From the NCBI RefSeq assembly GCF_001613795.1, contig NZ_LPVZ01000018.1, forward strand, positions 1 through 64,000: a DNA stretch of 64,000 bases, written 5' to 3'. This document shows positions 13,706-29,968 of this stretch, one piece after another. Made by a program: the position numbers and the translations under genes. Under the pieces are notes generated by a model. That model had not been told where the DNA came from, ran no database searches, and saw only the letters and a program-made list of their open reading frames with translations. Positions within the stretch are counted from its first letter, which is position 1; the number at the start of each line of letters is the position of its first letter. The DNA comes from Thalassospira sp. MCCC 1A01148. GTDB lineage: Bacteria; Pseudomonadota; Alphaproteobacteria; Rhodospirillales; Thalassospiraceae.

Positions 13706-14464
13706 TTAGGCGCGAACATCTCCGAGCTTGTTGATCATGTTGCGCATACGCTCGTTCTCGCTTTCCAGAGAACGGGTAACGGATTGATACGTGCGAAGAA
13801 CATCAATCATCTGGGTCATTGCACCGATCGGATTGACGTTGGATTTTTCAAGTGCGCCCTGCACGATGCCCGGGTTCTCGACCAGTTCGACCAGATCCTG
13901 ATTGTCCTCGCCTTCCGGCGCCTGATACAGCGTGTTCCCGGTAACGGTCATTTCCTGGACGTTGTCGACGGTCACGACCTGAAGTTTGCCGATCTGACCG
14001 ATGTCGGTGGCGATGGTTCCGTCACCCTTGATTTCGATCTGGCCGTCCGCTTCGTTGAAGAACATGGGCTGGCCTGCATCGCTGAGCACCGGGAAACCGT
14101 CATTGGTAATCAGCTGCCCGCCCGGATCCAGCGAAAAGTTGCCCGAGCGGGTATATTGAACACCGGTCGGGGTTTCGACGGCAAAGAACATGTCTGGCTG
14201 ACTAAGCGCGACATCCAGCGGGCGGTCGGTATGTTCGATCGTGCCTACTGTGGTGTTGCGATACTGGGAGATATCCTGAACCAGCGAAATCTCGCGTTCG
14301 CCACGGAACGGCGCATCCTTGTTCTTCGCGATCCAGTCGGTGAACATCATGCGCTGCTCTTTGTAACCGGTCGTATTCATGTTTGCCATGTTCTGCGACA
14401 GGTTGGACATCATGCTGCGCAGCGTCTTTTGACGGGACAGTGCAATGTATGAAACGTTTTCCAT
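13706..14464 (-). CDS. flgF: flagellar proximal rod protein FlgF
   Basis: 252 residues. The N-terminal rod motif LRSMMSNLSQNMANMNTTGYKEQRMMF and the C-terminal motif QGALEKSNVNPIGAMTQMIDVLRTYQSVTRSLESENERM identify FlgF. It is first gene of flgF-flgG-flgA-flgH, with a sigma-54 promoter 44-59 bases upstream of the start. Confidence 0.95.
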   Translation of the reverse strand: MENVSYIALSRQKTLRSMMSNLSQNMANMNTTGYKEQRMMFTDWIAKNKDAPFRGEREISLVQDISQYRNTTVGTIEHTDRPLDVALSQPDMFFAVETPTGVQYTRSGNFSLDPGGQLITNDGFPVLSDAGQPMFFNEADGQIEIKGDGTIATDIGQIGKLQVVTVDNVQEMTVTGNTLYQAPEGEDNQDLVELVENPGIVQGALEKSNVNPIGAMTQMIDVLRTYQSVTRSLESENERMRNMINKLGDVRA

Positions 14465-14885
14465 GGTCGAAATTTCCCTTTCAGGACTGTAGCTTGACCA
14501 TCAGGAATGCGATCTGTGTGCCAGTTTCATTAAGATATTGATTTTATTTAATAAAAATCAGGTTCGGCATTTGTTGCCGGGCGTTTTTATCGGCCAGCTG
14601 GCAGAAACTGCCGGAAAATTTCTGGGTTTCAGGAAAAGGATTGCCGGGATCGGGATGCGTGACGTGACCATCGGCAATTTCTTCCGGTGGGGACGGGGGC
14701 GTGCATTGTTTTTACCGCGCGCCTGATACATATGGCGCAGAGATGCAAAAATTTCCGCCTGTCTCAAATCGTCAGTGGACGGAAACGCAACAGATTTTTA
14801 ACGTGATAGCGTTATGGCTTTTAATCCGGCACAGTGTTTGCTGGATCAGGAAGACAGAACTTCAAACGCAGGAATTTGCGAAGCG
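14465..14885. other. divergent control region between flgF and fliL
   Basis: About 420 bases. It holds the minus-strand sigma-54 promoter of flgF (14,508-14,523) and an A/T-rich inverted repeat (TGATTTT at 14,539-14,545, AAAATCA at 14,554-14,560) just upstream of it. No clear promoter for fliL was found. The fliL frame stays open back to 14,814, so part of this stretch could be coding if that start is used. Confidence 0.55.
14508..14523 (-). promoter_or_regulatory. sigma-54 promoter for flgF operon
   Basis: Minus-strand reading TGGCACACAGATCGCA keeps the GG/GC pair ten bases apart and TGGCAC at -24. It would start transcription near 14,496, about 30 bases before the flgF start codon. Confidence 0.88.
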
Positions 14886-15422
14886 ATGGGTGACGACGTC
14901 GACGAAATTGAAATGGACGAAGGTGGCGGCGGCCGCAGCAAGAAAATGCTGATTGTGGTCGTTTTGCTTGTGCTGCTTTTGTTGGGTGGTGCTGCGGCGG
15001 CGTATTTCACAGGTTTGCTTCAGCCAGTGATCGACATGCTGACCGGTGGCGGTGGCGAGCAGACCGAAGAGGTCATCACCGAAGACTCCATTGAAGAAGC
15101 CCCGGGGGTGCCGGAAAATGTCGGTTTCGTGGATCTGCCTGAAATTCTGGTCAATCTGAATACAGGGGGTGGCAAACAGAGCTACCTTAAAATTCGGGTC
15201 AGTCTGGAAGTTGCCGATCAGGGAATGCTGCCGCAGGTCGAACAGATGATGCCGCGCATTGTTGACAACTTTCAGGTTTATCTTCGCGAACTGCGTCCCG
15301 AAGACCTTTCCGGGTCAGAGGGGATGTTCAGGCTGCGCGAAGAACTTCTGATCCGGGTAAGTGCCGCAGCCAAGCCTGCGAAAATAAACGACGTTTTGTT
15401 CAAGGAAATGCTGGTACAATAA
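14886..15422 (+). CDS. fliL: flagellar basal body-associated protein FliL
   Basis: 178 residues from the ATG at 14,886; an in-frame ATG at 14,814 would add 24 residues but has no ribosome binding site. An acidic cytoplasmic head is followed by one membrane helix (about residues 20-42, LIVVVLLVLLLLGGAAAAY) and a periplasmic domain with the FliL core FVDLPEILVNLNTGGGKQSYLKIRVSLEV. FliL surrounds the stator units and affects torque. It opens the fliL-fliM-DUF6468-motE-cheY-cheZ-motB run. Confidence 0.9.
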   Translation: MGDDVDEIEMDEGGGGRSKKMLIVVVLLVLLLLGGAAAAYFTGLLQPVIDMLTGGGGEQTEEVITEDSIEEAPGVPENVGFVDLPEILVNLNTGGGKQSYLKIRVSLEVADQGMLPQVEQMMPRIVDNFQVYLRELRPEDLSGSEGMFRLREELLIRVSAAAKPAKINDVLFKEMLVQ

Positions 15423-15464
15423 TCTTGTAGCAGCCCGAATGCCAAATTCAGGAAGCAATCGCTG

Positions 15465-16619
15465 ATGGCTGATGAAGACGATGATGATGATGCTCTCGCC
15501 GCTGAATGGGAAGCCATGGCAGGCGGCGATGACGAGGATGGAGACGACGGCGGCGAGGATATGGCCGCCGAATGGGAGTCCATGCTCGGTGACGATGACG
15601 GCGACGAAGGCGGCGGCGATGACGAAATGGCCGACGCCATGGGTGGCGGTACATCTGCGCGCGTTCTGAACCAGGACGAAATTGACAGTCTTCTGGGCTT
15701 CGATGACGGTTCGGGGGCGGGCGATCAGTCGGGTATTCAGGCCATCATCAACTCTTCAATGGTGGCCTATGAACGACTTCCGATGCTTGAAGTCGTATTT
15801 GACCGCCTTGTGCGTATGATGTCGACTTCCCTGCGTAACTTCACATCCGATAACGTCGAGGTATCGCTTGATAACATTCTGTCTTTGCGTTTCGGCGATT
15901 ACCTGAACTCGATCCCGCTGCCCGCAATGCTTGGTGTTTTCAAGGCAGAGGAATGGGATAACTACGGGCTGCTGACAGTTGATTCAGCGCTGATTTATTC
16001 CATTGTGGACGTTCTTCTGGGCGGGCGTCGTGGTACGGCGGCAATGCGTATCGAAGGCCGCCCTTACACCACGATTGAACGGAACCTTGTCGAACGCATG
16101 ATCCATGTGGTTCTGGGTGACCTGTCAGCGGCGTTTGACCCGCTAAGCCCGGTAACCTTCCGTTTTGAACGCCTTGAAACCAACCCGCGTTTTGCCACCA
16201 TTGCCCGTCACGCCAACGCTGCCATCGTCGCGAAGCTGCGCATCGACATGGAAGACCGCGGTGGTCGTCTTGAACTTCTGATCCCGTATGCAACGCTGGA
16301 GCCGGTTCGTGAACTTCTGCTTCAGATGTTCATGGGTGAAAAGTTCGGTCGTGACTCCATTTGGGAAAACCACCTCGCAAACGAACTGTGGCAGACCCAT
16401 GTTAATCTATTGGCAGTCCTTGATGAGCAGGTCATGGCCCTTGGCGATGTGATCAACCTTGAAGTTGGGAACCGACTGGTTCTTAATACTGGTCCGACCT
16501 CGCCAGTCGAGGTTCGGTGCGGGGATGTACCCCTGTTCAAGGGATTAATGGGGCGCAAGGGTGACAGGATCGCAATTCAGGTTCGTGATCGTGCGCGCTT
16601 AACCGAGGAAGATAGCTGA
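15465..16619 (+). CDS. fliM: flagellar motor switch protein FliM with acidic N-terminal extension
   Basis: 384 residues. FliM is the C-ring switch protein that binds CheY-P. The CheY-binding motif LNQDEIDSLLG is at residues 68-78 rather than at the extreme N-terminus. The 62 residues before it are highly acidic and contain a repeated LAAEWEAM / MAAEWESM unit (about 11-18 and 33-40). The middle domain (MIHVVLGDLSAAFDPL...) and the C-terminal SpoA domain (GDVINLEVGNRLVLNT...VRCGDVPLFKGLMGRKGDRIAIQV) are complete. Its stop overlaps the next start (TGATG). Confidence 0.96.
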   Translation: MADEDDDDDALAAEWEAMAGGDDEDGDDGGEDMAAEWESMLGDDDGDEGGGDDEMADAMGGGTSARVLNQDEIDSLLGFDDGSGAGDQSGIQAIINSSMVAYERLPMLEVVFDRLVRMMSTSLRNFTSDNVEVSLDNILSLRFGDYLNSIPLPAMLGVFKAEEWDNYGLLTVDSALIYSIVDVLLGGRRGTAAMRIEGRPYTTIERNLVERMIHVVLGDLSAAFDPLSPVTFRFERLETNPRFATIARHANAAIVAKLRIDMEDRGGRLELLIPYATLEPVRELLLQMFMGEKFGRDSIWENHLANELWQTHVNLLAVLDEQVMALGDVINLEVGNRLVLNTGPTSPVEVRCGDVPLFKGLMGRKGDRIAIQVRDRARLTEEDS

Positions 16620-17317
16620 TGGACTTCGCGTTCTATCTGGATCTTGTGATGATCGTGTTGCTGGTGGCAACGATCATTTATGCGATCATCCTGAACCGGA
16701 AGCTGGCGGCCTTTCGGCGTAGTCGCGAGGATATGCAGAACTTTTTGACCGCTTTCAACGCGGCCAACGAACGCGCGGAAACCTCGATCACAGCGCTTAA
16801 GGAAATGGCCGAGCAGTCTGGTGAAAGGCTGCGCGAGGACATTGAAAAGGCAGGGGCGCTCACTGAGGACCTCAGCTTTATGGTCGATCGTGGTGAAAGT
16901 ATCGCCAACCGTTTGGAAAAGGCCGCGCGTGACGTGAACTCGGTTCGTCGCAACGCAGGTGGCAGCGAAGGTGTGCAATCGGGATCATCGGCGAATAGCG
17001 ATACGGTAAAGTCCCCCGGCGGAGCGACGGCTGGTCTTGGTCGTATGATGGGGGCCCAGGATCGCAACGACGTGATTGATGATCGCGACCATGTCGGCGT
17101 TGAAACCCGCGCAGAGGAACTCGCTGCAAGAATGGTGGGCGAGATCGAGCGCGGATCAAACGGGCCGGTTGATGATGGTTACGACCGTGAAGAACCTGCG
17201 CGTGGTGGCATGCAGGGCAGTCGGGCCGATGTTTCTGATCCCTATGACAAGGACGAAGACGCCGGCCGCTCTGAGGCAGAACGTGAATTGCTGGCCGCAC
17301 TCCGGTCAGTACGATAA
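16619..17317 (+). CDS. DUF6468 motility-operon membrane protein
   Basis: 232 residues. One N-terminal membrane helix (about 4-26) is followed by a charged coiled coil (about 30-110) and a disordered acidic tail. It resembles the DUF6468 proteins encoded between fliM and motE-like genes in alphaproteobacteria. The function is not known to me; the one-helix-plus-coiled-coil layout and the position suggest a cytoplasmic motor accessory. It overlaps the fliM stop by one base, so the two are probably coupled. Confidence 0.75.
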   Translation: MDFAFYLDLVMIVLLVATIIYAIILNRKLAAFRRSREDMQNFLTAFNAANERAETSITALKEMAEQSGERLREDIEKAGALTEDLSFMVDRGESIANRLEKAARDVNSVRRNAGGSEGVQSGSSANSDTVKSPGGATAGLGRMMGAQDRNDVIDDRDHVGVETRAEELAARMVGEIERGSNGPVDDGYDREEPARGGMQGSRADVSDPYDKDEDAGRSEAERELLAALRSVR

Positions 17318-17481
17318 GAGGCCGCGAACGGCGCGTTTTGCGTCGTTTGTGGGCTTGAGATTATGAGTTTTCTTTTTATCTAATGGCTAGGATCCTGTTC
17401 CGCTGGAAACGCCATTGGAACAGAAAGAAATCAAGTGAGAAGGAGCATGGGCACTTTGTGCCGACATGCTTGGGTGTGTGA

Positions 17482-18216
17482 ATGTCAGGTGTGCGAATTC
17501 TGCCGTTGGTCGTCTTGGTCGGCGTGATGGTGCTGTCGATGCGGGTGGTCAACCTGTTTTCCTATGATACCGATGCACCGGTATCAGCAACGAAAACGGG
17601 TGTGAGCATGGTGCAGATCGCACAAGCGCAGGCACCGGAAACCGCAGGTGATCCAGCAGCAGAACAGGCCGCCACACCGGAAAATGGTGACCCGGGGCTC
17701 GACAGCCCCGAAGGACTCACCATGGAAGGTGAACCGATTGACGGTGTTACCGGCGATGCTGCCGTCCCGCCAATGCTCGGTGGCGATCCAACACTTTTCA
17801 CGCAAGAAGAAATCGACCTGCTGCAGAACCTTTCGGTGCGTCGCGGCGAGCTTGATCGCAAGGAACAGCGTCTTGACGAACGCGAAAGCCTGATTGCGGC
17901 GGCCGAAGCGCGTATTGATGCCAAGATCGAAGAAATGAAATCCCTGAAATCGGCCATCGAAGATTTGGTCGAGACCAAGGAAGCCCAGGAAGATGATCGC
18001 ATCAAGAAGCTGATCAGCGTTTACGAAAAAATGAAGCCGAAAGATGCCGCGCGCATCTGGAACGACCTTGATATGGATATCCTATTGCAGGTCGCCCTTG
18101 GTATGCGCGAAGCCAATACAGCTGCGGTTCTTTCGGAAATGACACCGGATCGTGCGCGTGCGCTGACCTCGGAGTTGGCCTACAAGCAAGATATCAATAT
18201 GTTGCCGCTGCAATAG
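17482..18216 (+). CDS. motE: MotE-family periplasmic motility chaperone
   Basis: 244 residues. A signal or anchor helix (about 4-24) is followed by a Pro/Ala/Glu linker, a long coiled coil (about 110-175, NLSVRRGELDRKEQRLDER) and a C-terminal MgtE-N-like helical domain (LISVYEKMKPKDAARIWNDLDMDILLQVALGMREANTAAVLSEMTPDRA). This is the MotE architecture; in Sinorhizobium MotE is a periplasmic chaperone for a motor protein. The ATG at 17,482 lacks a good ribosome binding site, while AAGGAG at 17,440-17,445 serves a short out-of-frame ORF that overlaps it. Confidence 0.85.
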   Translation: MSGVRILPLVVLVGVMVLSMRVVNLFSYDTDAPVSATKTGVSMVQIAQAQAPETAGDPAAEQAATPENGDPGLDSPEGLTMEGEPIDGVTGDAAVPPMLGGDPTLFTQEEIDLLQNLSVRRGELDRKEQRLDERESLIAAAEARIDAKIEEMKSLKSAIEDLVETKEAQEDDRIKKLISVYEKMKPKDAARIWNDLDMDILLQVALGMREANTAAVLSEMTPDRARALTSELAYKQDINMLPLQ

Positions 18217-18308
18217 CGACACAGCTTCAAAGGATTGACCGCGCGGTCCGAATGGGAAAGAGTGATCGACAGGACAATTTTTTGAAAAGAGCCAAGGTGA
18301 TGAACAAT

Positions 18309-18323
18309 TTAATAGCGGGTTAA
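18309..18323 (+). promoter_or_regulatory. candidate CtrA box upstream of cheY
   Basis: TTAA-N7-TTAA (spacer TAGCGGG), the CtrA consensus, about 112 bases before the cheY start. A second TTAAC lies 8 bases downstream, so GGTTAA and TTAACC form an inverted pair. CckA, the kinase that feeds CtrA, is encoded later in the window. Confidence 0.6.
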
Positions 18324-18435
18324 ACATCTTGATTAACCAATATTAAATATGTACATCACGATTATTAGGGGCCTTGTCACTATGCGGAAGTATGGTAGGC
18401 AAGGGTGGGAGATCAGATAGCTGATGGAGTTGTGA

Positions 18436-18822
18436 ATGGCCGTCGATCCGAATATGCCGATCCTGATTGTGGATGATTACAAAACCATGTTGCGTATCAT
18501 CCGTAACCTTCTGCGGCAGCTCAACTTTACGAATATTGAAGAAGCGACCGATGGTAGCATGGCGCTTCGCAAGCTGCGTGAGGCTCCTTTCAGTCTCGTG
18601 ATTTCTGACTGGAACATGGAGCCGATGACCGGTCTCCAGCTTCTGAAAGAAGTGCGCGCAGATGCCAAACTGAAGGATATGCCCTTCATTATGATCACCG
18701 CTGAAGCCAAGACCGAAAACGTTGTCATGGCGAAAAAGGCAGGCGTTTCCAACTACATCGTGAAACCGTTCAACGCAGAGACGTTGAAGGGCAAGATGAA
18801 GACTGTCATTGGTGATTTCTGA
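18436..18822 (+). CDS. cheY: chemotaxis response regulator CheY
   Basis: 128 residues, a stand-alone receiver domain. The acidic pocket D13/D14, phospho-acceptor D58, T88, Y107 and K110 are all in place. CheY-P binds FliM (LNQDEIDSLLG motif, 15,465 gene) and switches rotation. The CheZ-like phosphatase follows 17 bases later. A 219-base gap with a CtrA-type box precedes it, so the motor half of the operon may have its own promoter here. Confidence 0.95.
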   Translation: MAVDPNMPILIVDDYKTMLRIIRNLLRQLNFTNIEEATDGSMALRKLREAPFSLVISDWNMEPMTGLQLLKEVRADAKLKDMPFIMITAEAKTENVVMAKKAGVSNYIVKPFNAETLKGKMKTVIGDF

Positions 18823-18839
18823 TCAGGAGCGCGGGGCTT

Positions 18840-19499
18840 TTGTCCCGCGATACCGCTATGTCTAAGGCGTCCAAGGACGAACTACGGCAATTGTTGAATG
18901 ATCTTCGGGCGCGCCTTGATGGTGATGACCTTAAGGTCGAACAATTGTCAGAGCTGATGGATCAGCTTTCGCGCTTCATGGGCGACAAGCCGTCCGAGGA
19001 CCAGCAACGGCTGTTTGGCGAGCTTGACGAACTGTCGGGCATCATCCGCAAGATGAAGTCGGAGATTGCCTCGCTCCGTCCGGATGACATCAAGGCTGAA
19101 TATATCCCCAACGCAACCGACGAGCTCGACGCAATTGTCGATGCGACGGCGGGGGCAACCCACGAGATCCTTGATGCCATGGACGCGCTTGAGGAGTTCG
19201 CGACAACCTTGCCGCCAGAACAGGCAGAAATCGTGACGGGTGCAACCATGCGCGTGTACGAGGCCTGTAACTTCCAGGATATTACCGGGCAGCGCACGAC
19301 CAAAGTGATCAAGGCCCTGAAATCCATAGAAGAACGTGTTGAGGGGCTGGTCACGGCATTTGGCGACGAGATTGCCAAATACGCAGCGGCTAATCCGCGC
19401 CAGAAAAAAGAAGCCGAAGGCGAGGATGCCTTGCTGAACGGTCCGCAGCTTGAAGGAAAAGGCGTAACGCAGGCCGACATCGACGCGATGTTTAACTAA
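18840..19499 (+). CDS. cheZ: CheY-P phosphatase CheZ
   Basis: 219 residues from a TTG at 18,840, which has AGGAG eleven bases upstream; an ATG at 18,858 would remove six residues. The long helices and the catalytic segment NFQDITGQ (D147, Q151) match CheZ, in which the Gln dephosphorylates CheY-P. The C-terminus (GVTQADIDAMFN) resembles both the CheY-binding tail of CheZ and the FliM N-terminal motif. It follows cheY directly. Confidence 0.9.
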   Translation: MSRDTAMSKASKDELRQLLNDLRARLDGDDLKVEQLSELMDQLSRFMGDKPSEDQQRLFGELDELSGIIRKMKSEIASLRPDDIKAEYIPNATDELDAIVDATAGATHEILDAMDALEEFATTLPPEQAEIVTGATMRVYEACNFQDITGQRTTKVIKALKSIEERVEGLVTAFGDEIAKYAAANPRQKKEAEGEDALLNGPQLEGKGVTQADIDAMFN

Positions 19500-19510
19500 G
19501 TGGCGTTATC

Positions 19511-20392
19511 ATGGCGGAGATAGAGGAAGACGGACCAACACCACCATCCCCCCCAGCGAACGGGGCCGTGGCGTTGTTTCTGGCCCTCTATCTTCTTCTG
19601 CTTGCCTTCTTTATTCTGCTGAACACCATCTCGACCTTTGAAGAGGTCAAAACCCGCGAAGTGCAGGAAAGCCTCTCCTCGGCATTCGCGGCCATTCTCC
19701 CGCCGACGACCAGTCTGCAGACCGTGACCTCGATTGAAGGGCCAACGGTCTCTGCGCAGGAAACCCAGGACAAGCTGGGGCATCTTTTTGAAACTGCCAT
19801 CAAGGTGGTCCGGGTTGAAGTCATTCAGCCGGGCAAGCTGATGGAAGTCATCATGCATGTCGATCAGCTGTTTGATACCAATTCCATCCTGATCCGCGAA
19901 CGTCAGGCCGACTTCATGCGTCAGCTTGCCGAAGTGCTCGCAGATGAAGAAGGCTACGCGTCCTACGAGATGGAAATGGTGATGGGTAGCCAGATCGAAG
20001 ACAAGGGCACGATCCAGATCGAAAACAACCTTCAGATCGCGCAGGCAGGATCGTTTGCGCGTGAGCTGATTGATGTTGGCGCCCCGGAAGACCATTTCTT
20101 TGTGGGCATTGACCCGGGCGCTGACCCGTTCATCGTGACGTTCCGGTTCTTCTGGAATTTCGGACCCAAGGAACCGCCAGAACCCATCGAGCGCAACGGG
20201 AATGGTAATACGCCTGATGTAACGCCTGACGCCACATCACCGGGCACGGATGGCAACGGTGGGGGAAGTTCCGGGCAAACCGGCGCAATTGCACCTCAGC
20301 AGTTCATGATTCCGCCGGCAACGGGCACTGGCCAACCAGCCATTTCCCAGCCAATCCCGCTTGGGCCGCAAGCATCGGGAGGTGGCGGATGA
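19511..20392 (+). CDS. MotB-like stator protein lacking the channel aspartate
   Basis: 293 residues. One N-terminal membrane helix (about 18-38, AVALFLALYLLLLAFFILL) precedes a short plug-like segment and a degenerate OmpA-like periplasmic region (MHVDQLFDTNSILIRERQADFMRQLAEVLADEEG, about 116-149). The last 70 residues are rich in Pro, Gly and Thr. The topology is that of MotB, but no Asp is present in the helix where MotB carries its proton-binding residue. The stop overlaps the start of the true MotB-like gene (ATGA). It may form heteromers with that protein or act as a structural partner; this is inference. Confidence 0.72.
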   Translation: MAEIEEDGPTPPSPPANGAVALFLALYLLLLAFFILLNTISTFEEVKTREVQESLSSAFAAILPPTTSLQTVTSIEGPTVSAQETQDKLGHLFETAIKVVRVEVIQPGKLMEVIMHVDQLFDTNSILIRERQADFMRQLAEVLADEEGYASYEMEMVMGSQIEDKGTIQIENNLQIAQAGSFARELIDVGAPEDHFFVGIDPGADPFIVTFRFFWNFGPKEPPEPIERNGNGNTPDVTPDATSPGTDGNGGGSSGQTGAIAPQQFMIPPATGTGQPAISQPIPLGPQASGGGG

Positions 20393-21114
20393 GCGACGAC
20401 GCACCGCGCAAGGAAGAACACAAGGGGCCGCCGCCCTGGATGCTCAGTCTCGCGGACTTGATTTCGCTGCTGCTGACATTCTTTGTGATGTTGTTTGCCA
20501 TGTCCAAGGTCAAGATCGACCGTTGGGACGAGGTGGTCGACGCCTTGTCGCAGTCTATCAAACCCTCGCCGGTCGAAGATACCGACGAGCCGATGGCAAA
20601 TATGAACATCCCGCGTGTCTATCGTAAACCGGCGATGAACCTTGATTATCTGAGCGCCGTGATCGATGACGCCATTGATGACAACGCGGTTCTGGGGGAT
20701 GCCCGGATGTCGCGCGAAGCTGACAAGCTGGTGATTTCACTGCCGGGTGATCTTTTGTTTTTTGCTGGCAGCTCGGAAATGACGCCAAAGGCAAGGCAGG
20801 CTTTGTTTGTGCTGGGCGGGGTGTTGCGAAATATCGGCAACCGTATCGGTGTTCAGGGGCATACCGATCCGCGTCCGCTAAGTGGTCGTGGGCAATATGC
20901 ATCCAACTGGGAGCTTTCCCTTGCCCGTGCCGGTTCAGTTGCCAACGAGTTAAAGCAATCTGGTTACACAGATTACATAAATATTTACGGATTTGCGGCA
21001 TCAAGATACGACCAGCTTCCCAAATTGTTGGATGAGGAGGCGCGATTTGAGATGGCGCGCCGGGTCGACATTGTAATCGAGCCTCATGGGGGAAGCGGGA
21101 TCGGAGGCACGTAA
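20389..21114 (+). CDS. motB: flagellar motor stator protein MotB
   Basis: 241 residues. The membrane helix PWMLSLADLISLLLTFFVMLFAMS carries D23 in the position of the proton-binding aspartate of MotB. The periplasmic OmpA-like domain is clear (VISLPGDLLFFAGSSEMTPKARQALFVLGGVL...VQGHTDPRPL...SLARAGSVANEL) and anchors to peptidoglycan. It overlaps the preceding MotB-like gene by four bases and is followed two bases later by a giant TPR protein. No motA lies in the window. Confidence 0.9.
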   Translation: MSDDAPRKEEHKGPPPWMLSLADLISLLLTFFVMLFAMSKVKIDRWDEVVDALSQSIKPSPVEDTDEPMANMNIPRVYRKPAMNLDYLSAVIDDAIDDNAVLGDARMSREADKLVISLPGDLLFFAGSSEMTPKARQALFVLGGVLRNIGNRIGVQGHTDPRPLSGRGQYASNWELSLARAGSVANELKQSGYTDYINIYGFAASRYDQLPKLLDEEARFEMARRVDIVIEPHGGSGIGGT

Positions 21115-21116
21115 GT

Positions 21117-24100
21117 ATGGCGAAACTTGCCGTGCGCATCCTGCTGGCGGTTGTTGTTGCGACCACCACGGCAATGGTTTTGCCCTTAAGCGGTATGCGC
21201 CCTGCAATAGCCCAGGTGGCGGACCCTGTTATTATTCGCTCTGGGCTTCATAACGGTTATGGACGAATTGTTCTGCAATGGAACGAACCGGTCAATTACA
21301 CCGCCGAAATTATCGGCGATCAGTTGGTTGTGCGTTTCGATGAACGGTTGGTTGCCTCTTTGCGTGGTGTTGTTGCGCCCGTTTCGCGCTATGTTTCCGA
21401 TGCTTTCTTTGATCCTGACGGGCGGACTATCGCCTTTGTCTTAAGCGATGACTACGAGGTCCGCGCCTTCAACGTTGGCAGCAACGTGGTGCTTGATATT
21501 CTCGATAAGCCCGAAGCTGAACCGACACCTCCACCGGCATCGGTCCCGACGCCGCCTGTGCGCCCCGCACAGCAGGATCAGAATCAGACCCCTGAAATAA
21601 CCCCGGCCCCAACGACGCCGGTTGAGACAGTCGCTGATGACGGTGCGACACTGCCCGAACTTGATGTCCGCGTCGGGCGTCACCCGACATTCTATCGGCT
21701 GGTTTTTGATTGGCCGAACCGGACTGACTATGCGCTTGAAGGTGCGCAAGGATCACAAACCATTGCCTTTGGTGCTCCTGCCCGGATTGATGCAACAGAT
21801 GTTTCCCGTCGCCTGCCTCAAGGTGTGCGGGTGCGTCAGGATGGCACCAACCCGCTTGATGTGGTTATCGAAACCACACCGGCACGGCAATTGCGCCATT
21901 TCCGGTCCGGTAACAAGGTGGTGGTAGATATCATGGGGGTGCAACGTGCACCGGCAACGACCAGCGCGCAAAACCGCACCGCAGGAACAACGGATCCAGC
22001 AACAACCGCCCCGACACCACCTGCACCTGCGGCACCCGCGACTGAAACCGCGGCGCAAACGGATGACACCCCCGCAAATGGCAGCGCCGAAGACTCTGGC
22101 GATGCCGCGGTTAATGCCGAGGGGGCGGAACTTGACCCCAATTCGCCAGAAGCACTGGCGCAGGCGGCCCAGAACGCGGAAAACACCGTTCGTACAAACG
22201 GGCAGGCACCAGTCGAGCGCGAAAGCATTGGCGATCTTGTGGTCACGGTCGAACAGACTGCGACGGAACTTTCGCTTGGTTTCCCGTTCGGGCAACCGGG
22301 CGGTGCCGCTGTCTGGTCGCGCGCAGGTTTCTTGTGGCTGGCCTTTGATGTCCGTGCCAATCTCAACCTTGATACCGTGCGGCAAGAAGCTGCCCAGATC
22401 ATCGGGGTGGTCGAACAGGTCGAAAGCCCCTATGCCACGATTGTGCGCATGACAATCCCACCGGGTATCGGCCTTTACACGACCCAAAGTGATGCCGGTG
22501 ACTGGCGTGTCACCATGCAGCAGGGCATAATGCAGCCGGTTGAGAAGCTGGGCCCGTCAATTGAACTTGATGAGCAAACCCGCGCACGTCTGATCGTGCC
22601 GCTGGATGATGTTGGGCCGATCATCCCGATTGATGATCCAGAGGTCGGTGACACGTTGCGTGTCACCACAACAACCCAAAGCGGGTATGGCATCGAGGTT
22701 TCTTTGCGCTATCCCGAATTTGAGGTTTTGCCATCTGTTCAGGGTGTTGTTGTCGCCCCGATGAATGACAGCGTTCAGGTCGCCGGGCGTGATGACGGTC
22801 GGGGTGTGATCGTCACGGCCGAAGATGGTTTGAACATCTCGCCAGAAGGGGCGCGTTTGTTGGCATCGGCAACTGGCGTGCGGGCAGGAACCGGCGATGG
22901 CCGCGAAGGATTGATTTTTGAGCTCGAAGAATGGCGTCGTGGTGGGCTTGATAATTACAACAGGACAATCCGCGATCTTCGCCAGGGTATTGCTGATAGC
23001 GGTGACGAACATCGCAACAAGGCCCGTCTGGACCTGGCGCAGTACTATCTGGCCAATGGACTGGGCCCAGAAGCCGATGCTGTCATTTCGACAATGGAAC
23101 ACGATGATCCATTGATCGCACAGCGCCTGCAATTCCGGGCGCTCAAGGCGGCGGTAAAGTTTCTGAACCGCGATTACGAGGAAGCTGAACGCCTGCTTGA
23201 AGACGAACGTTTGCGCGAAATCCCCGAAATGCAGTTGTGGCGCGCGGTGACACTTGCTGCGCGCGGTCGCCCGAACGAAGGTGCGCGCGATCTTCTGGAA
23301 AGCGTTCATATTCTTGACTACTACCCGCCGGAACTGTTGTCGCGCATCGTGCCGATTGCAACCGAGCAGGCGCTTATCGTCGGCAACCCGGAAGCGGGGA
23401 TGGACATGATCGAGAAGATGCTGGTGACGCCCGGATTGTCCGAAAGCAAGATTATGGATATCCAGTACCTCAAGGGGGTCTTTGAGGAAGAGGCGGGCGA
23501 GCTTGAGCAAGCGGTCGCGACCTGGGATCAGGTTGCCGAGGGCGAGAACCGCAAGGCGCGCGCCCATGCAATCTTTGATCGAACAGAACTTTTGATGCGT
23601 CTGGAGCGTTTGACGGTCGAAGATGCGATTGAACAGCTTCAGAAGCTTCGCTTTGCCTGGCGCGGTGATGCATTCGAGATGGCATTGCTCAAGCGCATTG
23701 GCGAACTGCAGATCGAGAACAAGGATTTTCGTGAAGGGCTGAACACGCTGAGACAGGTGGCGATCTTCTTCCCCAATATGCCGGTGGCCAAAGAAGCAAC
23801 CGACATGATGCATGAAACCTTCGAAAATCTGTATCTGGGTGACGAGATTAACAACATCTCGGCGATCAAGGCCGTTGCGCTGTATGACGAATTCCGCGAA
23901 CTGACACCCGCCGGCGAAAAGGGCGATGAACTGATCCGTCGCCTTGCCGACCGGATGGTCGATGTCGAACTTTTCGAGCGTGCCGAGGATCTTCTGGAAC
24001 ATCAGGTAGACTTCCGCCTGTCCGGTGTTGAAAAAGCCCGGGTCGGGGCGCGATTGGCGCTGGTTTATCTTCTGGATAGCAAGCCCGAAGACACCATTCG

Positions 24101-24623
24101 CGTTATCGAGGAAACGGAAGTACCCGATCTTTCCGAGGAACTTGCAACGCAGCGTCGCCATCTTCGCGCGCGTGCACTGCTTGATACGGACCGCGGTGCC
24201 GAGGCCGTTGCATCGCTTGAGGGTGACTATTCACGTAATGCGGAACTGCTGCGGATTGATCATTATCGCAGCACCCGTGATTACATGTCCGCAGCCGAAA
24301 CATTCCAGCGTCTGGTGGGTGAAGAGCCGTTTGACGGGGACGGGATCTCTGATGAGCGCGGGCGTTACATGCTCAACTGGGCGGTCAATCTGGCAATGGC
24401 TGGTCAGGAACGGACGCTTAACATGCTCAAGCGCCGCTACGGCGAGATCATGGCCCAAAGCCCGTATGCAGAGGCATTCAGCCTGATTACATCATCGCCG
24501 ACCCAGGGGCTGATTGATTATCGCACCCTTGCGGATCGGGTTGACGAAGTAGAAGACTTCCAGGGTTTCCTTGCAACCTATCGAGACCAGTTGGAAAAGT
24601 CTCAGCTTAGTGCTATAAATTAA
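21117..24623 (+). CDS. giant periplasmic beta-domain/TPR protein of the motor operon
   Basis: 1168 residues. The signal peptide is about 1-33. Two related beta-rich, AMIN-like segments lie at about 34-130 (VVLDILD end) and 178-282 (VVVDIMGV end), separated by Pro/Thr-rich linkers. A third beta-rich part (about 370-610) precedes a long helical TPR-like superhelix (about 625-1168). I do not recognise a named family. The start lies two bases after motB, so co-translation with the stator gene is likely. The plan (periplasmic beta part then TPR) recalls PflA, a stator-scaffold protein of epsilonproteobacteria; that comparison is architectural only. Confidence 0.85.
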   Translation: MAKLAVRILLAVVVATTTAMVLPLSGMRPAIAQVADPVIIRSGLHNGYGRIVLQWNEPVNYTAEIIGDQLVVRFDERLVASLRGVVAPVSRYVSDAFFDPDGRTIAFVLSDDYEVRAFNVGSNVVLDILDKPEAEPTPPPASVPTPPVRPAQQDQNQTPEITPAPTTPVETVADDGATLPELDVRVGRHPTFYRLVFDWPNRTDYALEGAQGSQTIAFGAPARIDATDVSRRLPQGVRVRQDGTNPLDVVIETTPARQLRHFRSGNKVVVDIMGVQRAPATTSAQNRTAGTTDPATTAPTPPAPAAPATETAAQTDDTPANGSAEDSGDAAVNAEGAELDPNSPEALAQAAQNAENTVRTNGQAPVERESIGDLVVTVEQTATELSLGFPFGQPGGAAVWSRAGFLWLAFDVRANLNLDTVRQEAAQIIGVVEQVESPYATIVRMTIPPGIGLYTTQSDAGDWRVTMQQGIMQPVEKLGPSIELDEQTRARLIVPLDDVGPIIPIDDPEVGDTLRVTTTTQSGYGIEVSLRYPEFEVLPSVQGVVVAPMNDSVQVAGRDDGRGVIVTAEDGLNISPEGARLLASATGVRAGTGDGREGLIFELEEWRRGGLDNYNRTIRDLRQGIADSGDEHRNKARLDLAQYYLANGLGPEADAVISTMEHDDPLIAQRLQFRALKAAVKFLNRDYEEAERLLEDERLREIPEMQLWRAVTLAARGRPNEGARDLLESVHILDYYPPELLSRIVPIATEQALIVGNPEAGMDMIEKMLVTPGLSESKIMDIQYLKGVFEEEAGELEQAVATWDQVAEGENRKARAHAIFDRTELLMRLERLTVEDAIEQLQKLRFAWRGDAFEMALLKRIGELQIENKDFREGLNTLRQVAIFFPNMPVAKEATDMMHETFENLYLGDEINNISAIKAVALYDEFRELTPAGEKGDELIRRLADRMVDVELFERAEDLLEHQVDFRLSGVEKARVGARLALVYLLDSKPEDTIRVIEETEVPDLSEELATQRRHLRARALLDTDRGAEAVASLEGDYSRNAELLRIDHYRSTRDYMSAAETFQRLVGEEPFDGDGISDERGRYMLNWAVNLAMAGQERTLNMLKRRYGEIMAQSPYAEAFSLITSSPTQGLIDYRTLADRVDEVEDFQGFLATYRDQLEKSQLSAIN

Positions 24624-24640
24624 CGTTCAATAAATATATC

Positions 24641-26041
24641 GTGGTGCCGAATTCGCCCTTTGCGGGTGTGAGCGCTATGATTCTGTTGGATTTTTTGAAC
24701 GGTAATGAGTGTAGAGCTGTGATGGATCGTGCACTTAAAATGGTCTATTACGATGAGGCAAATGTCGAAAAGGACATTTTTGCCCAGCTTTCGCTTGCCC
24801 AGAAACACTATCAGGGCGACGGGATGCCGCGTGACGAATCCGCGACCCGCCGTATCCTTGACCAGATTCACCGCCAAAGCCGTGCGTTTGCTGCTGTTTG
24901 CTATGGATATATGCGCAGCAAGGGACTCGGCGTTGCCGAAGACCTTGGTGAAGGTCAGCAATGGTACCGAGAGGCGGCCTATTGGTTTAACGAAGAAGCC
25001 ACTTCTGGCGGCCCGGTATCGGCCAACAATCTTGGATATCTCTATGCCAAGGGGCTTGGCGTTCAGGAAAATGCCGAGACCGCTGCACACTGGTTTGAAG
25101 AAGCAATCGAATTCGGATCGGTCGCAGCCCTCTATAACCTTGGTGTCTGTTATCTCAACGGATGGGGCGTGCCACAGGATGACGAAAAGGCTGTGTCCTA
25201 TTTCGAACGTGCAAGCGAACTGAACGACCCGTCCGCTGCCAGTGTTCTGGCGTACCTTTATCTTGAAGGGCGCGGGGTGCGTCGCGATCCATCCAAGTCA
25301 TTTGAATTCAACATGCGCGCAGCACGCGCCGGCAGTGTCGAAGCGGCATCGGCCCTTGGCTACGCGCTGGGTGTCGGGTTGGGCGCAGAGCGCAATATTG
25401 CCGAAAGCATCAGCTGGTTTGAACTCGCCGCGAGCGAGGGGGACGCCTATGCGCAGGCCAATCTTGCGATGTATTTCTGCCATTCTTCTGATCTGAAATT
25501 GTTTAATCGCGGCTGGAAGATGTTGAGCCATGCGGTGGATCAGGGGGATGCATCTGCGAAATATCAGATGACCCAGATCCAAATTTTCGGTGTGCCACAT
25601 CGCGAACCGGATTATGCCAATGCGCTTGATCTGGCGATGGATCTGGCGGAGCTCAGTCATCCGGGCGGATATCATCTGATCGGGGTTATGTACGAACATG
25701 GTCTTGGCGTGCCTGTTGATATGGTACGTGCGGCGACCTGGTATGAACGCGCGGCCCGCAAAGGGTCAGCAAACGGTCAGGCAGCACTTGGACGCCTCTA
25801 TGCGATTGGCAGCGGTGTCGAACAGGACAATGTTCTTGCCTATTACTGGCTGAAAATGTCCGCACCGACAGAAGACAGTCAGGCGCAGCGTGAAATGGGG
25901 GCGATTTACGCCCGCATGAGCGAAAGGGAGCGCCAGGTGGCCGAGAAATATGTGACCGAAAATCCGGGTCCGCGTCGGGGAAGTTTTGGCCTCAAGCCGC
26001 TTGAACAGGATGTTTTTAAATCCGGTCGCCAAAAAGGCTAA
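24641..26041 (+). CDS. Sel1-like repeat protein
   Basis: Up to 466 residues from a GTG; ATGs at 24,677 and 24,722 are equally possible because no start has a strong ribosome binding site. It carries at least eight Sel1-like repeats with the pattern A-x-x-x-LGxxYxxGxGVxxDxxxAxxWFxxAA. No signal peptide or membrane segment is convincing, so it is probably cytoplasmic. Such repeats bind proteins; the partner is unknown. It is the last gene before a strong terminator and follows the giant TPR gene by 17 bases, which suggests it belongs to the motility operon. Confidence 0.85.
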   Translation: MVPNSPFAGVSAMILLDFLNGNECRAVMDRALKMVYYDEANVEKDIFAQLSLAQKHYQGDGMPRDESATRRILDQIHRQSRAFAAVCYGYMRSKGLGVAEDLGEGQQWYREAAYWFNEEATSGGPVSANNLGYLYAKGLGVQENAETAAHWFEEAIEFGSVAALYNLGVCYLNGWGVPQDDEKAVSYFERASELNDPSAASVLAYLYLEGRGVRRDPSKSFEFNMRAARAGSVEAASALGYALGVGLGAERNIAESISWFELAASEGDAYAQANLAMYFCHSSDLKLFNRGWKMLSHAVDQGDASAKYQMTQIQIFGVPHREPDYANALDLAMDLAELSHPGGYHLIGVMYEHGLGVPVDMVRAATWYERAARKGSANGQAALGRLYAIGSGVEQDNVLAYYWLKMSAPTEDSQAQREMGAIYARMSERERQVAEKYVTENPGPRRGSFGLKPLEQDVFKSGRQKG

Positions 26042-26087
26042 ACCGGATATCTGTGGGGCATCAATGCCCAGGTCTAGGGAAGACCAG

Positions 26088-26117
26088 AAGCCGCCATGCA
26101 ATGCAGGCGGCTTTTTT
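26088..26117 (+). terminator. terminator of the fliL-to-Sel1 operon
   Basis: Stem AAGCCGCC (26,088-26,095) and GGCGGCTT (26,106-26,113). The intervening TGCA-A-TGCA can also pair. A run of six T (26,112-26,117) ends it. Confidence 0.92.
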
Positions 26118-26279
26118 ATTTGTCCTGTCAGATATTGTTGGCTGTGCTGTTGCGGCGACGTACCGATCAGGTCAACGGAATGTATTGATATAGTTGGAAC
26201 TTGAGTTAGGGTTTTTAAATCAAACTGTTACTTCACGTATTCTGGTCTTGAGGCGAAATGCCCTGCCACCGAGGTCCGC

Positions 26280-27548
26280 ATGAAAGATGAACTGACATCG
26301 CTATGGGAGGCGACCGCCAATGACGCCCCCAAGACCGAAAAGCCCGAAGGCGAATATGATTGCGATGTCATGATTGTCGGCGCTGGCTTTACGGGCATGT
26401 CCTGCGCGCTTCAACTGGCCAAGGGTGGTGCATCGGTCATTGTGGTCGATGCTGTGCAACCGGGGTTTGGGGCCTCGGGCCGAAATGGTGGGCAGGTTAT
26501 TCCCGGGTTGAAACATGACCCCGAAACGATTGACCGGCTCTATGGTGCGTTCTCGACCGAGTTTGCGGGGAATACCGCCAAAACCACATTTGATCTGATC
26601 GCGAAACACAGTATCGATTGCGACGCCACGCCAAGTGGCTGGATACAGGGCACGATCAAGCGTGATCACCTTGACTTGCTTGAAACCCGTATGCGGGAAT
26701 GGCAATCGCGCGGCGCGGATGTACGCTTGCTAGATGCAGCTGAAGTTCAGGCGATTTCAGGCAGTAAACGCCTTGTTGGTGGCTGGCTTGATAACCGTGC
26801 AGGTCAACTTCATCCGCTTAAATACATCCGCGGTTTGACCCGTGCTGCGCAGGCGGCGGGATGTCAGGTGTTTGCCCCCGCGCCAGTTCGCAGCATGAAC
26901 TGCATTTCCGGAAAATGGCATGCCAGGATTGCCGAGGGCACGGCAACGATCAAAAGTGACCATGTGGTGGTCGCAACAAACGGCTATTCCGATGACCTGT
27001 TCCCGAAATTGCGCAGAAGCCTGATTCCGGCAAACAGTTTTCAGGTTGCAACCGCACCGCTTGGCGCGGAACAACTTGCCAGCGTTCTACCAAACAAAAC
27101 GCCTGTTTCGGACAGCCGGCGCATTGGTAATTATTTTCGGATTGGGCCAGGTGGGCGGTTGATGATGGGCGGACGCGGGACGTTTGCAGATCCGGTTGGC
27201 CGTGATGCTTTCAGGGAAATTATCTCGGAGCTGCATGCCTATTACCCGCAGGTCAAATCTTTGCCGATTGAATTTTGCTGGTCGGGTACGCTTGCCATGA
27301 CCTATGACCATTTCCCGCATCTGCACCGACCGCTGGAGAATATGACCATGGCGGTTGGCTATAACGGGCGCGGCGTGGCCCTGTCGACCTCACTGGGCAA
27401 GGCGATTGCCGATAACCTTCTGAGACCGGATATGCCGTTGCCGCTGCGTTTTAGCGACATCAAACCGTTATTTGCCCATGATCTGCACCGTGCCTATGCC
27501 ACGATGGCGATCTGGTATTATCGCCTGCGCGATCATCTCGAACGCTAA
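26280..27548 (+). CDS. FAD-dependent amine/amino-acid oxidoreductase (DAO family, PuuB/OrdL-like)
   Basis: 422 residues. The Rossmann motif VIVGAGFTGMSCALQLAKGG (about 31-50) is followed by GFGASGRNGGQVIPG, the FAD-contact segment seen in gamma-glutamylputrescine oxidase-like enzymes. Near the C-terminus FCWSGTLAMTYDHFPHLHRP and VGYNGRGVALSTSLGKAIAD are also typical. It probably oxidises an amine substrate, which is not identifiable from sequence. It sits between two flagellar blocks after a terminator, with its own promoter, and converges on fliP. Confidence 0.87.
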   Translation: MKDELTSLWEATANDAPKTEKPEGEYDCDVMIVGAGFTGMSCALQLAKGGASVIVVDAVQPGFGASGRNGGQVIPGLKHDPETIDRLYGAFSTEFAGNTAKTTFDLIAKHSIDCDATPSGWIQGTIKRDHLDLLETRMREWQSRGADVRLLDAAEVQAISGSKRLVGGWLDNRAGQLHPLKYIRGLTRAAQAAGCQVFAPAPVRSMNCISGKWHARIAEGTATIKSDHVVVATNGYSDDLFPKLRRSLIPANSFQVATAPLGAEQLASVLPNKTPVSDSRRIGNYFRIGPGGRLMMGGRGTFADPVGRDAFREIISELHAYYPQVKSLPIEFCWSGTLAMTYDHFPHLHRPLENMTMAVGYNGRGVALSTSLGKAIADNLLRPDMPLPLRFSDIKPLFAHDLHRAYATMAIWYYRLRDHLER

Positions 27549-28974: not shown

Positions 28975-29310
28975 CTATTTGGTGCGTGCAGCCTGTGCAT
29001 AGGCATTTGTTGCCTGCGCGGTGTTGCTGATGCCACGAAGCTGGCGCTGAATGTCACTGTATTCCTGCTGCATCCGGGTTTCGAATTGCCCCAGTTCCTC
29101 GGTCAGTGATGCAAGCAGCGGCGCGACTTCCTGGCGTTGCTCCGGGGCAAGGGTGCGGGCCTGTTCGCACAGGTCGGCAATGCGGCTTTCAAGGGCTGAC
29201 AGTTCAACGACCTTGCCGTCTTCGAGATATCGTTGTCCGGTGCGGATCAATGACAGGACGCGCTTCAGGTCGTTTTTGAACTGATCGGGCTTGTATTGCT
29301 CTGGGCTCAT
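28975..29310 (-). CDS. small helical protein of the flagellar cluster (FliT/FlgN-like?)
   Basis: 111 residues, almost entirely helical, with a heptad-like stretch at about 35-95 (VVELSALESRIADLCEQARTL). I do not recognise a family with confidence. Size, charge and helix content resemble flagellar export chaperones of the FlgN/FliT type. Its ATG overlaps the FlhB-tail gene stop by four bases, so it is co-translated with an export-apparatus relative, which fits a chaperone or regulator role. Confidence 0.75.
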   Translation of the reverse strand: MSPEQYKPDQFKNDLKRVLSLIRTGQRYLEDGKVVELSALESRIADLCEQARTLAPEQRQEVAPLLASLTEELGQFETRMQQEYSDIQRQLRGISNTAQATNAYAQAARTK

Positions 29311-29723
29311 GATGGGCCTTCCCCGTTTACGTCATCTGTTGGTGTTGCCAGGATCTGATCTTCTGGATCGGACTGGCTGCGCGACGGACCGCCATAAATG
29401 CGATTGATCCGGTATATATAGTTCAATATCTCGGCGACGGCTGCAAAGGCTTCAAGCGGTATTTCACTTTCAACGTCCACAGCCATCAAAATCTCGGCAA
29501 GATCACTGTCCTTGCGGACCTTGATCCCGTTGGCAAAGGCGACCTGCAATATCTGTTCCGCAACGCTGCCTTCGCCTTTAGCACTTAGTGTCGGGGCATT
29601 GTCCCGCCCATGCTTGTACCTTAGCGCGACCGCCTTTTGGTCAGGCGCACCCGGTGCGGCAAGGTCTTCCGTCTTGCTCGCCGGTGTGTCGGTAATGTCA
29701 TAGGTCGGCTTTTTCCCGCTCAT
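29307..29723 (-). CDS. FlhB C-terminal-domain homologue (FlhX/EscU-like)
   Basis: 138 residues from the ATG at 29,723, which has GAAGGA just upstream; a start at 29,753 would add ten residues without such a site. The region KAVALRYKHGRDNAPTLSAKG...AEQILQVAFANGIKVRKDSDLAEILMAVDVESEIPLEAFAAVAEILNYIYRIN matches the cytoplasmic tail domain of FlhB after the cleavage site. The membrane part and the NPTH motif are missing. Known stand-alone relatives (FhlB/FlhX) can partly replace the cleaved FlhB tail. The full flhB is at 33,328. Confidence 0.85.
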   Translation of the reverse strand: MSGKKPTYDITDTPASKTEDLAAPGAPDQKAVALRYKHGRDNAPTLSAKGEGSVAEQILQVAFANGIKVRKDSDLAEILMAVDVESEIPLEAFAAVAEILNYIYRINRIYGGPSRSQSDPEDQILATPTDDVNGEGPS

Positions 29724-29968
29724 ACGGTCCTTCAATTCAGGACGGTTTGCCATTTTTGCCAGTGGCAGGCACCCCTAACAGGGTCGACCATAGACCCAAG
29801 ATGGTCAACAAAACGTTGTCGACCTGAACGTCGACCCAAATCTTGTGATCATCACATCGGCAATACAATCAAAACCACACTGGCCAATAGGCCTGCATGC
29901 TGTTGATGGTAGGACAAATTGTCGGGATTTGTTACCGGTCCGAACTCTGTGTGACCGGCGCAAGGGTG

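Follow-up and report, generated by a model that had tools for sequence, protein, structure and literature searches.

The window analysed here is a stretch of 64,000 nucleotides from Thalassospira sp. MCCC 1A01148 (contig NZ_LPVZ01000018.1, positions 1 to 64,000), and it contains a flagellar locus in which a long open reading frame (ORF) follows motB. The genes on the + strand are, in order, fliL, fliM, a DUF6468 gene, motE, cheY, cheZ, motB' (which is MotB-like), motB, the long ORF and an ORF for a Sel1-repeat protein. The long ORF (21117-24623, ATG start) encodes 1168 amino acids and, as the original prediction stated, begins after a gap of 2 bases from motB (20389-21114). That prediction placed the 1168-residue protein and the Sel1-repeat protein together in a possible, previously undescribed, PflA-like stator scaffold. 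The 1168-residue protein is not a new kind of part. It is a new, long representative, in Thalassospira, of the alphaproteobacterial MotK/FssB (CC_2058) family, and it most likely serves as a PflA-type stator spoke.

The N-terminus of the protein is hydrophobic, with a Kyte-Doolittle maximum mean of 2.53 over a 15-residue window. Hydropathy places a putative signal peptide at residues 1-33 (21117-21215), with a cleavage site, chosen by eye, between AIA and Q, and from its sequence the protein looks like a Sec-exported protein. The putative signal peptide is followed by AMIN-like module 1 (residues 36-132, 21222-21512) and AMIN-like module 2 (residues 180-276, 21654-21944), which are joined by a Pro-rich linker. 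Module 2 is the best predicted of the modules, with a predicted local distance difference test (pLDDT) score of about 75. A second linker, rich in Pro, Ala and Thr, poorly conserved and of low pLDDT (residues 277-369, 21945-22223), leads to AMIN-like module 3 (residues 370-475, 22224-22541). Residues 476-612 are partly conserved and are predicted with low confidence. The remainder of the protein, from about residue 604 to residue 1168 (22929-24620), forms the TPR superhelix that had been proposed, as the AlphaFold model of residues 600-1168 contains 31 helices at a pLDDT of 76.8. The best-conserved block of the protein lies in this part, at residues 841-980 (LRFaWRGD ... LYdeFReLTPaGekGD ... 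LEHQVdFRL, 23637-24056). All of these features are on the + strand. The Pfam matches of the protein are to AMIN-like (E 4.9e-4), AMIN (E 0.0038) and TPR_16 (E 7e-4) models and all are under the curated cut-offs. A sequence search of the PDB matched PilQ at E 0.003, which also speaks for AMIN-like domains.

Two related AMIN-like segments had been noticed in the sequence. Their relatedness was upheld, but profile-profile comparison finds three modules and not two, module 3 having been missed. Module 1 matched module 2 at 99.6% (E 1e-24) and module 3 at 97.4% (E 1.5e-11), and modules 2 and 3 matched each other at 96.6% (E 6e-10). The segments were cut from a 116-row alignment and had 86 to 113 rows each. 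As controls, 12 tests against three pieces of the TPR region gave 2.1% or less, and segment 476-612 gave no match to any of the three modules (0.4% or less). Among the 100 proteins of the survey described below, all three AMIN regions were at least 60% occupied in 61. Module 1 fell below 60% occupancy in 30 rows, module 2 in 13 and module 3 in 3, so that module 3 was occupied in 97; these losses come in part from mechanical ORF starts and contig ends. The WRGD-like motif was present in 93 of the 100 survey proteins. A C-terminal tail resembling LSxxN (LSAIN, LSALN or similar) was seen in 30 of the 100 and is a possible contact peptide. A shorter TPR form, about 570 amino acids from a signal-like start inside the ORF, occurs at L159:11496-13463 near FliL, FliM, DUF6468 and MotE. 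It has no AMIN match and aligns with the family over its C-terminal half (1e-88).

Homologues of the 1168-residue protein were found with a single-protein query in 152 of 289 alphaproteobacterial genomes, representing 119 of 223 genera, which is more than a chance reading frame would give. These counts refer to sampled species genomes, incomplete ones included. FliM was found in 160 of the same genomes. Homologue and FliM occurred together in 144 genomes, the homologue only in 8, FliM only in 16 and neither in 121 (odds ratio 136, Fisher p 2e-52), and this co-occurrence bears out the flagellar link. A family profile, A2 (31 rows, 1102 positions), was also searched against 299 Pseudomonadota genomes. 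Long matches, covering at least 778 positions in one piece at E 2e-188 or better, were found in 34 genomes, every one within the class. Outside the class no long match was found, only short TPR or AMIN-sized pieces, the best being a 152-position TPR piece at 8e-10. At E 1e-3 the profile matched in 113 of the 299 genomes against 34 with long matches, and most matches beyond the 34 genomes are therefore generic TPR or AMIN pieces. The ORFs matched by the module 1 part of the profile outside the class were mostly about 400-560 amino acids long, which would be the size of AmiC amidases. Within the Thalassospira type, 13 loci encode proteins 70-90% identical to the 1168-residue protein. A tblastn search of PLSDB gave partial matches to the protein on 6 plasmids.

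The survey of the gene neighbourhood took one locus from each of 100 genomes among the 152 that gave a match. ORFs were called mechanically and were assigned with profiles grown from the window genes. The window genome and its genus-mate are represented by other loci and stand outside the survey, as do second members of a genus, a number of matches that were fragmentary or weak, and genomes with no listed position. Within 400 bp upstream, the closest annotated gene was MotB in 52 loci, CheZ in 14, MotE in 13 and CheY in 9. The spoke gene thus follows motB, motE, cheY or cheZ in 88 of the 100 loci. The conserved link to motB that had been proposed is seen in all 52 of the loci with any MotB match. 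The survey regions contained MotE in 83 cases, FliM in 79, DUF6468 in 79, FliL in 77, MotB in 52, CheY in 50 and CheZ in 47. In two loci (L122 and L124) the MotB and TPR genes are apart from the fliL-fliM part, with FliM lying either at a distance of about 1 Mb or on a different contig.

In the window the corresponding genes are fliL (14814-15422, PF03748), fliM (15465-16619, TIGR01397), the DUF6468 gene (16619-17317), motE (17482-18216), a cheY-like gene (18436-18822, from family profile matches) and a cheZ-like gene (18840-19499, PF04344), all on the + strand. MotE is assigned as an E-ring protein of the FlgY-FlbB type from synteny together with MgtE_N and NCBIfam FlbB matches, both of which are at 6e-5 and below cut-off. 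The DUF6468 protein matches PF20072 at 3e-20. In the survey the DUF6468 gene usually sits between FliM and MotE and it occupies the pflI slot in motK-type operons. From this position and the gene order it is very probably PflI.

The family to which the protein belongs has been described recently. MotK of Cereibacter sphaeroides, from the Fla2 system, is reported as an exported protein of 652 amino acids with an AMIN-like N-terminus and a TPR-like C-terminus, motK mutants are paralysed, and MotK binds MotE and MotB2 (PMC10954123). The gene order given for Paracoccaceae is fliL, pflI, motE, motA, motK (PMC10954123). CC_2058 is fssB in Caulobacter; its deletion gives flagellated, non-motile cells and the protein was judged necessary for stator activity (PMC7885107). 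The CC_2058 gene is placed downstream of motE (CC_2059) in the account of PMC13023049. The 1168-residue protein has the features of this family, which are N-terminal AMIN-like domains, a C-terminal TPR array and the fliL-pflI-motE operon. The likeness to MotK includes the putative export. It differs from MotK in length (1168 against 652 amino acids), in the number of AMIN-like domains (three against one) and in the genes that precede it: motA lies between motE and motK in the published operon, whereas CheY, CheZ, MotB' and MotB stand there in Thalassospira and an unpaired motA is on another contig. FssB is likewise an exported TPR protein whose gene follows motE. Among the 100 survey loci, 13 have MotE as the closest annotated gene upstream, and the same holds for three further loci (L185-L187), with E below 1e-250, as in the Caulobacter order.

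The connection to motK was examined in a family of loci, f24, which is presumably Rhodobacteraceae. The gene order FliL-DUF6468-MotE-MotA-TPR was found in 4 of 6 such loci, although two of the four DUF6468 assignments are weak (E 2e-3 and 6e-4). Of the remaining two loci one has no called MotA; in the other DUF6468 was not called and a contig end truncates the locus. These loci were picked for weak profile matches and represent 6 of the 7 f24 genomes with a match, the seventh (G444) being TPR-only; two further genomes (G154 and G406) are listed with no match to profile A2. The order in the four loci is the published motK order, and this identifies DUF6468 as PflI by position. Profile-profile comparison of A2, the window family, with A4, built from 4 of the 6 f24 proteins, gave 99.7% (E 3.2e-25) over 677 columns. 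There is good support both for membership of the MotK/FssB family and for an association with flagella.

MotC of Sinorhizobium and other rhizobia was also considered. MotC is described as a periplasmic partner of MotE, and the text of PMC13023049 names an AMIN domain for MotK and not for MotC. Like the window protein, MotC is encoded directly after motB, at 3 bp in L189 and at 2 bp in the window. However, no profile homology was seen: MotC scored 5.0% to the window family and 0.2% to the MotK-type set, and filing the protein under MotC was rejected on the 5.0%, which rests on 4 MotC rows. These rows come from 4 of 6 rhizobial MotB loci (PRK05996-type MotB matches, L188-L193), L188 and L193 having been read on the + strand only and giving no usable MotC. 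In an hmmsearch with the family profile, four of five ORFs supposed to be MotC scored 6.5-8.8 bits, over low-complexity or short stretches; the E-values refer to a five-sequence database, and this result was not used.

Campylobacter and Helicobacter PflA offers a structural comparison. PDB entry 9HMF is the periplasmic scaffold of C. jejuni (PMC12222027). Chain K of the entry has 773 residues, the length of PflA as cloned (residues 16-788; PMC11870540), and for this reason 9hmf_K is taken to be PflA. PflA is described as a beta-sandwich, a linker and a TPR superhelix, with one beta-sandwich domain and 16 TPRs, and as a structural spoke in situ (PMC12222027). In C. jejuni the spoke formed by the C-terminal part is directed at the motor axis, while PflB is wrapped by the beta-sandwich (PMC12222027). 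In published work on relatives, PflA spokes contact FlgY and help to position the stators. When the full-length model of the 1168-residue protein was compared with 350,542 PDB chains by Foldseek, 9hmf_K ranked first (E 3.6e-9, 901 columns), the second match was at 1.1e-6 and 9hmf_L was at rank 41. The overall plan would thus be like that of PflA. The protein differs in having three AMIN-like modules where PflA has one beta-sandwich domain and 16 TPRs, and no sequence match was seen among the PDB matches listed. PflA is therefore kept as a protein that works in a like manner and not as a member of the sequence family.

For Thalassospira we infer the contacts, orientation and function as follows. 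The protein would be exported to the periplasm and would span the distance from the MotE E-ring to the stator. Its three AMIN-like modules on flexible linkers would hold the outer end, with either peptidoglycan or an adjacent molecule of the scaffold as the point of attachment. By analogy with the orientation of C. jejuni PflA, the TPR end would be turned towards MotE and the AMIN modules towards the periphery. In this way stator units might be brought to fixed positions or kept active there.

Several observations weigh against a PflA-type spoke of the MotK/FssB family. The full-length model, for which the alignment held Thalassospira-type relatives only, is poor (pLDDT 55, predicted template modelling score 0.35) and its template modelling (TM) score to 9hmf_K is only 0.14-0.19. 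With the TPR-only model 9hmf_K was at rank 5 (5e-6), level with unrelated TPR proteins. Given the low TM score and this rank among generic TPR proteins, the specificity of the PflA match lies in the combination of beta and TPR parts; the PflA-like plan that had been proposed thus holds for the best full-length match, but its TPR half is non-specific. A PDB sequence search gave no flagellar scaffold chain in the best 60 of 65 matches, the presence of a PflA chain in the file not being established, and phmmer against the PDB gave nothing relevant. VIA-align with both models returned generic TPR proteins only; 9hmf was not among the 50 matches listed, which excludes nothing. CC_2058 is reported not to be similar to MotK by BLAST (PMC10954123), and homology to the named MotK and CC_2058 proteins rests on gene order and on proteins from motK-type loci. 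The 8 genomes with a match and no FliM have completeness values of 57-97% and one of them (G217) matches only at E 1e-4; in another (G124, locus L069) MotE, CheY, CheZ, MotB' and MotB precede the spoke gene. The single-sequence query found no homologue in 16 FliM-positive genomes. In 8 FliM regions examined from these genomes the profile shows a fragment or short form in 2 and nothing in 6, and some of the contigs end there. Finally, 12 of the 100 survey loci have no annotated gene within 400 bp upstream, of which one has a distant MotE and 11 have none, 3 of these being contig ends.

Three other explanations were weighed against the spoke. The protein could be a periplasmic assembly factor or chaperone for MotB and MotE that acts in stator maturation and forms no structural spoke, as was first proposed for S. 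meliloti MotE-MotC. TPR proteins are common chaperones. The gene lies directly after motB, the slot that motC has in rhizobia, and C. sphaeroides MotE is reported to be unstable in the absence of MotK (PMC10954123). The localization of MotK speaks for a part of the motor instead: MotK-sfGFP foci at the flagellated pole depend on the stator proteins MotA2 and MotB2 (PMC10954123), and the protein that the full-length model matches best in fold, PflA, serves as a structural spoke in situ (PMC12222027). A role in assembly only is considered unlikely. It has also been considered that the AMIN array could anchor a polar flagellum in the cell wall from the peptidoglycan side, with stator loss as a secondary effect. 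Three AMIN-like modules would suit such an anchor, as AmiC is described as having an AMIN domain that binds peptidoglycan, and the operon includes pflI, which has been implicated in positioning (PMC10954123). However, mutants of the relatives keep their filaments and are paralysed like motB mutants (PMC10954123, PMC7885107), and the best-conserved block is in the TPR part of the protein and not in the AMIN part. This makes a wall anchor quite improbable.

The last alternative is that the Sel1-repeat and TPR proteins make up one new stator scaffold, with the Sel1 protein as a MotX-like component. A Sel1-repeat gene is indeed present after the 1168-residue ORF, with 7 Sel1 stretches (E 3.8e-54). 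The start kept among relatives is the ATG at 24722 and not the GTG at 24641, so that the gene is at 24722-26041 on the + strand and encodes 439 amino acids. It follows the spoke gene in all 15 Thalassospira-type loci (14 distinct, since L002 and L038 are one locus and the 115 loci examined hold 114), and the protein matches NCBIfam MotX at 1.5e-15. The MotX score is, however, 57.2 bits against a cut-off of 330, the MerG and AlgK models score higher, and no hydrophobic N-terminus or signal peptide is visible by eye from the conserved start. On the score and the N-terminus an assignment as MotX was rejected, and from its sequence the protein looks cytoplasmic. None of the 100 survey loci carries a member of the Sel1 family, a count that concerns the loci and not whole genomes. 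The Sel1 protein is probably not part of the spoke and is not counted with it; a joint scaffold, as the original prediction had it, finds next to no favour here. The preferred reading remains a PflA-type spoke of the MotK/FssB family.

The claim that this arrangement was previously undescribed does not hold, because the operon matches the published fliL-pflI-motE-motA-motK arrangement and MotC, MotK and CC_2058 have already been called PflA-like, with MotE as the likely E-ring protein (PMC11870540, PMC13023049). The family may be present in the tables of PMC11870540, as that study is described as having searched alphaproteobacteria with CC_2058, MotK and MotC. In the literature searched, supplements not covered, no description was found of a sequence family spanning the class or of the form encoded next to motB, and no paper was found that joins Thalassospira, the flagellar motor and the stator. 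New here are the unity of the family in sequence across the class, the three-module AMIN array, the tight link to motB and the case against the Sel1 protein. In 2020, work on the Caulobacter motor in situ concluded that its 11 stator positions exist in the absence of a scaffold of the MotXY or PflAB kind (PMC7534056). With the later papers, a PflA-like spoke gene is now findable by sequence in 144 of the 160 FliM-positive alphaproteobacterial genomes sampled. The family map gives candidates for mutation in tractable motile alphaproteobacteria, namely the WRGD block at residues 841-980 and AMIN modules 1-3.

The MotB paralogue encoded upstream of MotB is the more unusual lead. MotB' (19511-20392, + strand) has a plug region and an Ala in place of the transmembrane ion-binding Asp, whereas MotB has a plug and an OmpA domain and keeps the Asp. 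MotB' is present in 49 of the 100 survey regions. An alignment of 67 MotB and 64 MotB' rows, the window and near-identical Thalassospira rows included, has Asp in this column in 65 of 67 MotB rows and Ser, Ala or Gly in 62 of 64 MotB' rows. The exceptions are L125 (Gly) and L079 (a gap) among MotB, and L093 (Asp, apparently a MotB) and one gap among MotB'. In the survey rows alone, 50 of 52 MotB and 48 of 49 MotB' follow the pattern. It is conceivable that B and B' form a stator with a single ion Asp, and a literature search on such a stator gave nothing that looked relevant. A wider proposal is that the stator ring of most flagellated alphaproteobacteria is built on a single ancient spoke family, coherent in sequence and with as many as three AMIN modules. 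In the many lineages with MotB', MotB and the spoke in tandem, the stator would contain one ion-conducting MotB and one MotB' that lacks the ion-binding Asp, held by the spoke, and the motor would run on asymmetric, spoke-locked stator units. This is speculative and we regard it as rather doubtful.

In the Thalassospira genome a motA with no adjacent motB is found at G000:C9:13329 (L045, L173), next to a FliN-like ORF and on a contig different from that of motB' and motB. Three more pairs of motA-like and motB-like genes are on contigs C12, C13 and C20. A scan of 14000-27000 in the window gave 6 promoter-like sites against 7.3 in shuffled sequences and 20 terminator-like sites against 14.5 (standard deviation 3.9), and showed neither kind of site in the gap upstream of the Sel1 gene. 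Further along the window, a gene at 29307-29753 on the - strand encodes a 148-residue protein that matches the C-terminal 78 positions only of the FlhB family PF01312, and it adjoins a weakly FliT-like gene.

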